Position numbers and translations under genes: made by a program. Source: a virus. From it: a stretch of 64,000 bases of DNA. The DNA lies in the IMG/VR virus record IMGVR_UViG_3300036770_003454, positions 62,001 through 126,000 of that record. The stretch is one strand, 5' to 3'. Below are positions 2,825 to 17,571 of the stretch, piece after piece. The stretch's first letter is position 1, and each line of letters begins with the position of its first letter. The notes beneath the pieces were generated by a model, which was not told the DNA's origin, did no database searches, and was given only the letters and a program-made list of their open reading frames with translations.

Positions 2825-3011
2825 GTTCTAGTTCTCTGACAATAGCATTCAAAGTGTCATTATCAGCGACATCCCAAGTGGCATCCCAAGTGGCATTACA
2901 AGTGGCATTATAAGTGACATTACTAGTGGCATTTTCAGTGGCATTTTCAGTGGCAACCCTAGTGGCATTATAAGTGGCATTATAAGTGGCATCTTTTGTT
3001 TTATTCAACAT
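2814..3011 (-). CDS. Array 2 micro-ORF H, NAT-repeat protein
   Basis: A 65-aa protein with start MLNKTKDATYNAT, about twelve x-(N/D/E)-A-T tetrads (x = Y, R, S, C, W and others), and end NAIVRELEHVE. Its start overlaps the stop of ORF I by 11 bases. In that overlap one strand segment encodes EHVE-stop in one frame and MLNK in another. It is nearly identical to ORF I at its ends but differs in tetrad order, as expected from slippage or recombination. Function unknown. Confidence 0.6.
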   Translation of the reverse strand: MLNKTKDATYNATYNATRVATENATENATSNVTYNATCNATWDATWDVADNDTLNAIVRELEHVE

Positions 3012-3395
3012 GTTCTAGTTCTCTGACAATAGCATTCTTAGTGGCATTATAAGTGGCATTCCTAGTGGCATCCCAAGTGGCATTACAAGTGGCATTATAA
3101 GTGACATTACTAGTGGCATTTTCAGTGGCATTATAAGTGGCATTCCAAGTGGCATTCCAAGTGGCATTATAAGTGGCATCTTTTGTTTTATTCAACATGT
3201 TCTAGTTCCCTATCAATAGCATTATAAGTGGCATTCCTAGTGGCATCCCAAGTGGCATTACAAGTGGCATTATAAGTGACATTACTAGTGGCATTCCAAG
3301 TGGCATTCCAAGTGGCATCCCAAGTGGCATTTTCAGTGGCAACCCTAGTGGCATTATAAGTGGCAACCCTAGTGGCATTCTTAGTGGCATCTTTT
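2836..3395 (-). repeat. Long 12-bp repeat tract in three ORF units, array 2
   Basis: Three tandem units (H, I and J), each about 187 to 214 bp, are built from 12-bp GTGGCATTNNAA-type repeats. They are separated by near-identical junction sequence encoding RELEHVE-stop overlapped with MLNK/MIDK. Sub-blocks such as the YNATCNATWDAT-coding run recur in all three units. Duplication is therefore visible at two levels, 12 bp and about 190 bp. Confidence 0.9.
3001..3198 (-). CDS. Array 2 micro-ORF I, NAT-repeat protein
   Basis: A 65-aa protein, MLNKTKDATYNATWNAT to NAIVRELEHVE, with about thirteen regular tetrads. It overlaps J and H by 11 bases each. The ribosome binding site lies within the conserved RELEHV codons (AGAGAACTAGAAC) and is weak. 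Translation probably depends on coupling from the upstream ORF. Function unknown. Confidence 0.6.
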   Translation of the reverse strand: MLNKTKDATYNATWNATWNATYNATENATSNVTYNATCNATWDATRNATYNATKNAIVRELEHVE

Positions 3396-15085: not shown

Positions 15086-16123
15086 TTATTTCACATCTTT
15101 TGTGGTTAAGGAAATCATATTCTTAACATTATTCACAACTTTATCAAGTTCCTTCTTTGGAAGTGCTACTAGACCCTTTCGTGCAAGATAACCATCTTGA
15201 GAAATTGCACGATTAGATACATATTCTTCTGCGAATTCCTTTAGTCCAGGAATTACACCAATATGTTGCTTCTTGATGTAAACAAATAGTGGTCTAGCAC
15301 CCTTATATCTACCACTTGAAATATTGTCAAAATCAGGAACAACTCCGTCAATTGCTACACCACGAAGGGTTGAGATGTTCTCTTCAAGGAATGAATAACC
15401 AAAGATTCCAAAAGCATTACGATTTGCTTGTAACTTTTGAACTATTACGTTATCATTTTCACCTGCTTCTACATATGCACCATCTTGACGAATAGACTTC
15501 CATGCTGTTTCAAATGCCTTGCGATTAGACTTTTTTAGATCCTTGAGAACTATTTCTGCTCCTGGTTCCATGAATAGTTCATGAAATGAATCACGAGTAC
15601 CAGAAGTTGGAGGTGGACCAAGAACCTCAATTCTTACATTTGGTAGTTGCGGATCAATATCTGACCAGTTCTTATATGGATTTGGAATCAGATTACCAGA
15701 CTTATCAGGAACCTTTTCTGCTAGCGCAAGAAATACTTGTGCTAGTGATAGTTTGATATTTGGTCCATTCTTTGATTGTGTGATAGTAAGACCATCAAAA
15801 CCAACTTTGATTTCAACAATCTCTGTTACACCATTCTTCACACACATTTCGAATTCTGACTTCTTGATTGCACGAGAAGCATTTGAAACATCAGGATGTG
15901 ATGTTCCAACACCTGCACAAAAAAGTTTAAATCCACCACCTGTGCCTGTAGATTCTACAATTGGTGTCTTTGTACGTGTATTTCGTCCAAAGTTTTCAGC
16001 AACGGTTGTTGTAAATGGATATACAGTTGATGAACCAACAACACGAATTTGATCACGTGCTTCTGATTGTGGAATATATATCAAGATTAATGCCAACGGC
16101 AACAAAAATTTATACTTCATCAT
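15086..16123 (-). CDS. pstS: PstS-like periplasmic phosphate-binding protein
   Basis: The 345-aa protein has a signal peptide (about residues 1-22, ending SEAR) and the PstS phosphate-site motifs: VVGSSTVYPFTTTVAENF near the N-terminus, ESTGTGGGFKLFC, SNASRAIKKSE and PPTSGTRDSFHELF. Phage PstS copies are known from marine T4-like phages and are thought to raise phosphate uptake during infection. It shares this window with a lipid phosphate-scavenging pair (17608-19322). It overlaps the 75-aa upstream gene by 4 bases. Confidence 0.92.
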   Translation of the reverse strand: MMKYKFLLPLALILIYIPQSEARDQIRVVGSSTVYPFTTTVAENFGRNTRTKTPIVESTGTGGGFKLFCAGVGTSHPDVSNASRAIKKSEFEMCVKNGVTEIVEIKVGFDGLTITQSKNGPNIKLSLAQVFLALAEKVPDKSGNLIPNPYKNWSDIDPQLPNVRIEVLGPPPTSGTRDSFHELFMEPGAEIVLKDLKKSNRKAFETAWKSIRQDGAYVEAGENDNVIVQKLQANRNAFGIFGYSFLEENISTLRGVAIDGVVPDFDNISSGRYKGARPLFVYIKKQHIGVIPGLKEFAEEYVSNRAISQDGYLARKGLVALPKKELDKVVNNVKNMISLTTKDVK

Positions 16124-16371: not shown

Positions 16372-16462
16372 TGGTAGACCTATCAGGATTCGAACCTGAA
16401 TAACCCTCTAATCTGGAGTTACGGCTTATAAAACCGGTGCATTACCGTTATGCTATAGGTCT
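16372..16462 (-). tRNA. Class II-shaped tRNA with UAU anticodon
   Basis: A 91-nt tRNA: acceptor AGACCTA/TAGGTCT, D-stem GCAT/ATGC, anticodon arm CCGGT-TTTATAA-GCCGT (anticodon UAU, one weak outer pair). The variable region is 21 nt and can form AACTC/GGGTT. T-arm TCAGG-TTCGAAT-CCTGA, A73 and encoded CCA. By anticodon it reads AUA (Ile), but long variable arms are normal only for Leu, Ser and Tyr tRNAs. C4-G69, an Ile identity pair in E. coli, is present. Confidence 0.85.
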
Positions 16463-16469
16463 ATAAATG

Positions 16470-16553
16470 GTGGTAGATGTTGGAATCAAACCAACTCGGT
16501 CTTTCGACATACGGTTATGAGCCGCAGGGCACCTCATTTGCCATATCTACCAT
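16470..16553 (-). tRNA. Class II-shaped tRNA with CAU anticodon
   Basis: The acceptor is GGTAGAT/ATCTACC and the D-stem GGCA/TGCC. The anticodon arm is TGCGG-CTCATAA-CCGTA (CAU), and the 14-nt variable arm contains a GTC-GAAA-GAC hairpin. The T-arm is GTTGG-TTTGATT-CCAAC, with A73 and encoded CCA. The anticodon suggests Met or lysidine-modified Ile, but the variable arm is of the Leu/Ser/Tyr type. Confidence 0.85.
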
Positions 16554-16565
16554 GTTTAAAAAAGA

Positions 16566-16796
16566 TTATACCAATTCACTGTCATTATGTTTTAAATAAG
16601 TAGATTTAACTAAATTAATATTAAACATATCTTTAGCATTATCAAATTCTTCTAGCAAACATTCTTTTATACCATTAAGTGTATAATCAAGATATTGCGC
16701 ATCGTGCATTCTTCCTTCATTTTCACCAAATTCTTCCATGAAACTTTCAGCATAAACTTTTAAAACAAAAACGTGCTCAATCATATTTTTCTTCAT
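16566..16796 (-). CDS. Small acidic hypothetical protein, 76 aa
   Basis: Starts MKKNMIEHVFVLKVYAESF behind GGAG at eight bases. Helical and acidic (EEFGENEGRM, LLEEFDNAKDMF). It sits inside the tRNA cluster between the CAU and UAA tRNAs. No family recognised. Confidence 0.6.
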   Translation of the reverse strand: MKKNMIEHVFVLKVYAESFMEEFGENEGRMHDAQYLDYTLNGIKECLLEEFDNAKDMFNINLVKSTYLKHNDSELV

Positions 16797-16822
16797 AATA
16801 AAATCTCCTTATATATAAAAAC

Positions 16823-16900
16823 TGGTGTGGATGGTGGGATTCGAACCCACACTGTCAAAATTTTAAGTTTCGTGTCTCCTACCTATTGGACTACATCCAC
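16823..16900 (-). tRNA. tRNA with UAA anticodon (Leu) but short variable loop
   Basis: A 78-nt tRNA: acceptor GTGGATG/CATCCAC, wide D-arm, anticodon arm CGAAA-CTTAAAA-TTTTG (UAA). The variable region is only 5 nt (ACAGT). T-arm GTGGG-TTCGAAT-CCCAC, A73 and encoded CCA. It should decode UUA (Leu), yet it lacks the long variable arm of leucine tRNAs. Confidence 0.85.
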
Positions 16901-17184: not shown

Positions 17185-17571
17185 TTATTTTAAATGTGTT
17201 CTTCTTATTCTTGCTGACAACCATGTATTATAATACATATCATCTATTAAACAATCACGAACAAGAATTTCTTTCGTTTCCATATAAGACATCCACCCCT
17301 TTGACTTACATAAATGAATGATCTCTTTTTTTATTTGATCTCCATTTTTAATATCTTCATTTAATTGATCATTAGATCCCGTATATGTTATCCAATCAGA
17401 TGATACTCTAGTTTTTTTCTTCTTTTTATTTTTCTGATAAGTTTTTGATTTTGTGAAGGATTTTTTGCCAACATACATTTTATCATTGGTTAAATTTGTT
17501 ATTATATAAACAAATCCAACATTATCACCAATCATATCTTCAGTAAATTCTGTTTCATTATATAACCACAT
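17185..17571 (-). CDS. GIY-YIG-like endonuclease-family protein
   Basis: The 128-aa protein has GFVYIITNLTNDKMYVGKKS (GIY-YIG-like lead) at about residues 19-38. A basic stretch (YQKNKKKKKTRVSSDWITY) and the conserved TGSNDQLNEDI follow, then ETKEILVRDCLIDDMYYNTW. This exact layout is frequent in T4-like phages as a small predicted nuclease. The degenerate YVGKK core leaves nuclease activity uncertain. Confidence 0.75.
   Translation of the reverse strand: MWLYNETEFTEDMIGDNVGFVYIITNLTNDKMYVGKKSFTKSKTYQKNKKKKKTRVSSDWITYTGSNDQLNEDIKNGDQIKKEIIHLCKSKGWMSYMETKEILVRDCLIDDMYYNTWLSARIRRTHLK

Follow-up and report, generated by a model that had tools for sequence, protein, structure and literature searches.

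The window analysed here is a stretch of 64,000 nucleotides, positions 62001-126000 of a virus record of 149,078 bases (IMG/VR record IMGVR_UViG_3300036770_003454), and it carries nine transfer RNA (tRNA) genes, the tenth of the record, a tRNA-Thr, lying outside it. Judged by its DNA polymerase and helicase, the virus looks like a T4-like phage, and its closest named relative at the DNA level is Pelagibacter phage Mosig, with 70% identity over a short stretch only. Three of the tRNAs, with anticodons UAU, CAU and UAA and all predicted on the minus strand by ARAGORN, had been singled out in an earlier note for variable arms of 21, 14 and 5 nucleotides, respectively, and these lengths were confirmed both by ARAGORN and by reading of the sequence. 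Our main subject is the UAU tRNA, the long variable arm of which carries a hairpin resembling the anticodon arm of tRNA-Ile(GAU). Its features are listed below in window positions; scores refer to the Rfam tRNA model RF00005, with a curated gathering threshold of 29 bits.

16372..16462, minus strand: tRNA-Ile(UAU), 91 nucleotides including the encoded CCA, with a 7/5 cloverleaf, A73, C4-G69 and a long variable arm (ARAGORN; Rfam RF00005, 61.3 bits).
16428..16430, minus strand: decoding anticodon UAU, which reads AUA (ARAGORN anticodon position 33).
16400..16420, minus strand: variable arm AACUCCAGAUUAGAGGGUUAU, 21 nucleotides, with the hairpin CUC-CAGAUUA-GAG (read from the sequence).
16409..16415, minus strand: 7-nucleotide loop CAGAUUA with GAU (16411-16413) in the place of the anticodon, an apparent mimic of the tRNA-Ile(GAU) loop CUGAUAA.

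The C4-G69 pair and the A73 that the earlier note had pointed out in the UAU tRNA are both present, and the two long arms fold as it had described: the UAU hairpin stays separate in the predicted fold of the tRNA (z -3.06), and the GUC-GAAA-GAC hairpin of the CAU arm forms. None of the three tRNAs showed an alternative cloverleaf in which the variable loop would be standard, an outcome named there as refuting, and Rfam scoring, proposed there as a check, placed the UAU and UAA tRNAs (61.3 and 62.4 bits) above the threshold and the CAU tRNA below 29 bits. By length the UAU tRNA belongs to class II, its 21-nucleotide variable arm exceeding 10 nucleotides; by likeness it does not, as its arm and body are unlike those of tRNA-Leu, tRNA-Ser or tRNA-Tyr.

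The first blastn match to this tRNA was an unannotated tRNA of Lactobacillus phage LpeD with an identical variable-arm loop, CAGAUUA. When viral contigs were scanned for this loop together with a T arm, at least 120 stretches were recovered, and nearly all of those that were read were tRNAs with a UAU anticodon. To avoid circularity, two further viral scans left the variable arm free. Fixing the D arm, TTATA and the T arm, we found a long arm in 103 of 105 tRNAs, with GAU at the loop centre in 102 of these 103; fixing only the D and T arms, so that the anticodon was free as well, returned UAU in 55/55 and GAU in 55/55. In a scan that covered 84,980 species of bacteria and archaea, 113 stretches were recovered, most of which were tRNAs of this kind, the bacterial carriers being Xanthomonadaceae, Rhodobacterales, Acidobacteria, Microbulbifer, Nostoc and others. 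For further analysis we parsed 289 distinct UAU tRNAs with long arms, drawn from phage contigs and from genomes of bacteria and including that of the window; they comprise 151 unique arms. Judged from these sequences, long-arm UAU tRNAs form a large, previously unrecognised family.

A 7-nucleotide loop centred on GAU and closed by a stem of at least 3 base pairs was present in the variable arm of 284 of the 289 long-arm UAU tRNAs, as compared with 1 of 511 other long arms at the same loci, and among controls it occurred in none of 186 tRNA-Leu, one of 220 tRNA-Ser and none of 56 tRNA-Tyr arms (1/462 together). In just one of the 289 was GAU absent from the arm altogether. The loop positions of the 151 unique arms read C/U, A, G, A, U, U/A/G and A/G, giving the consensus YRGAUNR, and the anticodon loop of E. 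coli tRNA-Ile(GAU) is CUGAUAA. The stem covaries, since pair 1 may be CG, AU, GC or UA and pair 2 GC, UA, AU, CG or GU, with 99-100% of these arms paired; pair 3, the equivalent of 29-41, is C-G in 141/151, and C-G at pair 2 occurs in merely 13. The tertiary 15-48 pair covaries as well (A-U 161, G-C 17). The A at the equivalent of position 38 was imposed by two of our search patterns, and its counts are valid only from the patterns that left it free, which gave 90/102 and 55/55. At the equivalent of position 33, occupied by U in normal decoding loops, 149 of the 151 mimic loops have A, and since U33 is needed for decoding, the mimic loop is unlikely to decode. In 135 of the 151 arms a linker of 5-6 nucleotides joins the hairpin to the T stem, near the length of a normal variable loop. 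We find that the variable arm is best explained as a copy of the tRNA-Ile(GAU) anticodon arm, to which the isoleucine identity set would have been transposed. That the loop of the variable arm might pair with that of the real anticodon was also considered and was dropped on inspection, as only CAGAUAA is complementary, and CAGAUUA or UAGAUGG is not.

A38 is one of the determinants of isoleucine identity. The C29-G41 and C4-G69 pairs and the 12-23 pair are determinants in E. coli as well (PMC9976931). In the real anticodon arm of the long-arm UAU tRNAs, C29-G41 occurs in 19%, as against 61% of tRNA-Ile(GAU) and 91% of short-arm UAU tRNAs (n=11), and A38 in 35%, as against 100% and 82%, respectively; the Fisher p values of 7e-10 for C29-G41 and 1e-22 for A38 overstate the evidence, since the sequences are mutually related. 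The window tRNA itself retains A38 in its real loop. The standard isoleucine anticodon-arm set, consisting of GAU or a modified anticodon, A38 and C29-G41, is largely missing from the real arm of the family and stands in its variable arm. Elements outside the anticodon arm are retained: A73 is present in 97% of the family, the window tRNA included, and in 13% of phage tRNA-Ser, which mostly have G73. Among loci that had not been chosen by their D arm, 85 of 94 long-arm UAU tRNAs have U12-A23, as against 0% of phage tRNA-Leu; the window tRNA, with A12-U23, is an exception within the family.

Arms of this kind occur in Lactobacillus phages LpeD and Lpa804, Levilactobacillus phage ENFP1 and a Latilactobacillus sakei phage, in Synechococcus phages S-SRM01 and S-SKS1, and in Vibrio phages Achelous and henriette 12B8, where they were read directly; blastn matches were obtained in most of 40 Vibrio records, and Achelous is an isolate on the laboratory host V. 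campbellii BB120. Where databases annotate these tRNAs it is mostly as tRNA-Ile, and several records leave them unannotated. One subfamily (L327, L388, similar bacterial loci and some viral loci) has a minimal D arm of 4 base pairs with the 4-nucleotide loop UGGU and a single base between acceptor and D stem, which may be likened to tRNA-Sec or allo-tRNA. Near the long-arm UAU tRNA in Lactobacillus phages, ARAGORN predicts tRNAs whose anticodons have four bases, UUUG and AGUG (L009 4279-4350, L010 1924-2001). In bacteria the presence of the long-arm tRNA is patchy (5/149 and 1/100 genomes), from which we take it to be accessory there, and the idea of a native, conserved tRNA of a bacterial family was rejected; one bacterial neighbourhood (Microbulbifer L366) looks non-phage. 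No real match was present in 301 genomes from the family of a Lactobacillaceae species, where a strict short-arm UAU pattern likewise gave zero matches, and none in the E. coli genomes scanned. A search for relatives through a neighbouring 75-amino-acid protein led back to the same virus only. No prior description of a GAU variable-arm hairpin was found in the open-access literature, several key papers lying outside that search; its novelty is probable, not proven.

We also asked what AUA means in the phage of the window. Across 39 proteins with homologues, AUA makes up 27% of the isoleucine codons, and isoleucine is the residue most often aligned to it. In a wider set, the conserved columns with AUA have isoleucine in 35/73, leucine in 10/73 and valine in 9/73, and the comparison codons gave 121/196 for AUU at isoleucine and 69/107 for UUA at leucine. 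These counts speak for AUA being read as isoleucine in this phage and disfavour a wholesale leucine, serine or tyrosine meaning; ambiguous decoding, which the earlier note had put forward as one possibility, is not what the columns indicate. Mass spectrometry of AUA substitutions, proposed there as a check, could not separate leucine from isoleucine, which are isomers (PMC4300185).

The anticodon of tRNA-Ile serves both the ribosome and isoleucyl-tRNA synthetase (IleRS), and in bacteria their differing demands at AUA are brought together by lysidine. E. coli IleRS does not charge tRNA-Ile2 when its C34 is unmodified (PMC11938285), nor is it efficient with unmodified tRNA-Ile(UAU), which the Mycoplasma mobile enzyme charges efficiently (PMC4810244). 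Since IleRS reads position 34 and the E. coli enzyme rejects U34, an AUA reader with a plain U34 has a charging problem; neither a class Ia synthetase nor a TilS gene was found in this phage record. We propose that the UAU tRNA may be an isoleucine tRNA with two anticodon-like arms, in which the ribosome would read the normal arm, UAU, at AUA codons, and the variable arm would supply the determinants of the bacterial IleRS, namely G34, A35, U36, A38 and C29-G41. The host IleRS could then charge the tRNA via the GAU hairpin despite U34 in the real anticodon, and the phage would be able to read AUA with a tRNA independent of lysidine synthetase. Because the linker is about the size of a normal variable loop, the hairpin could replace the anticodon arm in an alternative L, possibly a rearranged shape in which it is stacked under the D arm while the tRNA is being charged. 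On the strength of the comparisons above, we consider it likely that the isoleucine identity set of the anticodon arm reached the variable arm by copying, enabling the host IleRS to charge a direct AUA reader. That the GAU hairpin recurs across one type of tRNA, in hundreds of phage examples and some bacterial ones, suggests that the ribosome reads one arm and the charging enzyme the other. That IleRS reads the hairpin, and in what manner, we infer, and we lean slightly towards a split in which the ribosome reads UAU and the synthetase GAU in the variable arm, for which the tRNA may alternate between two L-shaped folds.

The hairpin could instead serve a functional tRNA-Ile(UAU) structurally or in docking, by stabilising the core or favouring the decoding of AUA over AUG, its likeness to GAU being coincidental. 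YRGAUNR does conserve positions without known IleRS reading, as the nearly invariant A at the 33 equivalent (149/151), the 37 equivalent is mostly U, and a UAU tRNA does require help in avoiding AUG. However, GAU would appear by chance at the loop centre, in a tRNA with a GAU isoacceptor, about once in 64 cases, and neither the C-G at pair 3, nor the A at the 38 equivalent, nor the relaxation of A38 and C29-G41 in the real arm is predicted by such a role, which we judge unlikely. Alternatively, a loop that resembles an anticodon loop might be a decoy or recruiter that mimics the tRNA-Ile(GAU) loop, absorbing a host anticodon nuclease or attracting a modification enzyme, and phage tRNAs are frequently explained as a response to host tRNA cutting. 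We regard this as quite improbable: the hairpin is confined to UAU tRNAs, and the loss of isoleucine determinants from the real arm is left unexplained.

Charging of the UAU tRNA by leucyl-tRNA synthetase, which the earlier note had raised for the long-arm pair, or by the seryl or tyrosyl enzyme, with AUA read ambiguously, has a precedent in the nematode nev-tRNAs, since nev-tRNA-Ile(UAU) shares both the UAU anticodon and a long variable arm and is charged with leucine in vitro (PMC4300185); A73 is, moreover, compatible with leucine and tyrosine. The nev arm is tRNA-Leu-like (PMC4300185), whereas the arm of the family described here differs from Leu, Ser and Tyr arms and appears to copy the tRNA-Ile(GAU) anticodon arm, phage tRNA-Leu lack the Ile-like U12-A23 pair, the frequency of A73 sets the family apart from phage tRNA-Ser, and AUA codons align with isoleucine, so that we give such charging very little credence. 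Hardly credible at all is a functionless relic or a misprediction, another suggestion of the note: its length is unusual, but stem and tertiary contacts covary over 151 unique arms, CCA is encoded, the stems are intact, and the tRNA recurs in unrelated Synechococcus, Vibrio and Lactobacillus phages. What survives of the note's interpretations, in spirit, is its mention of novel identity combinations, in the form of a GAU hairpin and transposed isoleucine determinants; leucyl charging, ambiguous decoding of AUA, swapped classes and relics find no support.

Several points nevertheless weigh against charging of the UAU tRNA through its GAU hairpin, to which the relatedness of the sequences compared above must be added. 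In complexes of class I synthetases the variable loop normally points into the solvent, and for the hairpin to be read, the tRNA would have to adopt a different conformation, dock in an unusual way or be joined on the enzyme by a second tRNA. Of the 151 mimic loops, 104 have U at the 37 equivalent, which makes t6A37, a strong determinant for bacterial IleRS, impossible in most mimic arms, though A37 is still present in the real anticodon loop. A long-arm UAU tRNA on contig L241 is without GAU, and Lactobacillus phage 3-521 (L447 600-690) has the variable loop CGGACAG, with GAC replacing GAU. Short-arm UAU tRNAs do exist in a few phages (11 parsed). TilS scored above the cut-off in 37 of 39 bacterial genomes with a long-arm UAU tRNA, so this tRNA is not the sole AUA reader of its bacterial carriers. 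The leucine share is somewhat higher in AUA than in AUU columns (10/73 vs 21/196), and misreading of AUA at the level of a few percent is compatible with the column counts, the numbers being small. As to phage 3-521, the IleRS of lactic acid bacteria is reported to recognise UAU tRNA, so the variable loop may be relaxed there. We had also looked for bacterial hosts that depend on the long-arm tRNA for want of TilS and found none, TilS being present in nearly all carriers.

Other solutions to the reading of AUA as isoleucine are known. The lysidine tRNA-Ile2(CAU) with TilS satisfies IleRS at the wobble position by modification of C34, where the family described here would use a second arm. The tRNA-Ile(UAU) of M. 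mobile and some bacterial tRNA-Ile3(UAU) likewise have UAU and read AUA as isoleucine without lysidine (Taniguchi 2013 via PMC4810244, PMC4014445; PMC8450103). As far as these secondary accounts go, the synthetase is altered there to accept U34, whereas here the tRNA bears an extra GAU hairpin and the bacterial carriers keep TilS. The lactic acid bacterium Lactobacillus plantarum is reported to have a tRNA-Ile(UAU), redundant beside tRNA-Ile2, which has been described together with its IleRS (Tomikawa 2018 and Uesugi 2022, as cited in PMC9976931); L. plantarum phages carry the long-arm form. Among allo-tRNAs of the 8/4 kind, UAU is the most frequent anticodon; these tRNAs also have a long variable arm, with Acidobacteria among their carriers (Mukai 2017, as summarised in PMC7609411), and one of the two D-arm types of our family has a very short D loop that recalls them. 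By that summary, allo-tRNAs have a 12-base-pair acceptor branch of 8/4 or 9/3 and Ser or Ala elements, and our family, including the window tRNA, is 7/5 with A73; the two are set apart by description, and overlap with the acidobacterial members is possible.

The other two tRNAs discussed in the earlier note have the following features.

16468..16551, minus strand: tRNA(CAU), with A8, U56 and a 14-nucleotide variable arm (ARAGORN; under the Rfam gathering score).
16496-16509, minus strand: CAU variable arm UGUCGAAAGACCGA, GUC-GAAA-GAC, 14 nucleotides (read from the sequence).
16823..16900, minus strand: tRNA-Leu(UAA) (ARAGORN; Rfam 62.4 bits).
16851-16855, minus strand: UAA variable loop ACAGU, 5 nucleotides (read from the sequence).

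The note had treated the UAU and CAU tRNAs as a pair, but the GAU loop is on the UAU arm only, and CAU tRNAs are otherwise short-armed (198/200). The lowest-energy fold of the CAU tRNA is not a cloverleaf, even though its GAAA-capped hairpin forms. A relative in a 462-kb phage contig (L449) has the same oddities with compensatory changes in the acceptor and anticodon stems, indicating that the CAU tRNA is maintained and not decaying; it appears to be rare, odd and kept under selection, and its identity may be either Met or lysidine-type Ile2. Its arm is similar to tetraloop arms that occur sporadically among phage tRNAs of several further isotypes. Such long arms, many with GNRA or other tetraloops, were noticed on normally short-armed phage Asn, Thr, Lys, Trp, Cys, Gly and Pro tRNAs (L105, L140, L279, L158, L121, L071, L367 and others), and two more long-arm CAU tRNAs (L448 ~2984-3068; L232) combine an initiator-like U1-U72 mismatch with a 14-nucleotide variable arm.

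With its 5 nucleotides the UAA tRNA lacks the long variable arm of host tRNA-Leu, but a swap of tRNA classes need not be invoked for it, as short-arm tRNA-Leu recurs in phages, making up 146 of 330 parsed phage tRNA-Leu. The 146 include some already annotated as such, among cyanophages and in a Pseudomonas phage; similar tRNAs are found in P-SSM7, P-RSM6, S-SKS1 and Pseudomonas phage 254. Thus the short-arm UAA tRNA is a common, ordinary phage tRNA-Leu, and the UAU, CAU and UAA tRNAs are three unrelated cases. Shortly downstream of the tRNA pair and on the same strand lies a gene resembling a phosphate ABC transporter substrate-binding gene (15086-16123), matching a gene of Mosig. An open reading frame near the tRNAs (17185-17571) has PHROG 447, 'NAD synthetase', as its top match and homing endonuclease families second; a related gene bears different names in two records of phage S-SRM01, and the reading frame probably encodes a homing endonuclease.

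If the UAU tRNA is indeed read by the ribosome at one arm and by IleRS at the other, the rule of one anticodon for both readers would be broken, and the family would show that identity elements can be transposed within one tRNA. It would also explain how phages may decode AUA independently of a host modification enzyme, providing a new, lysidine-free answer to the AUA problem that has spread among phages and, for genetic-code engineering, a natural example of an anticodon uncoupled from its synthetase.
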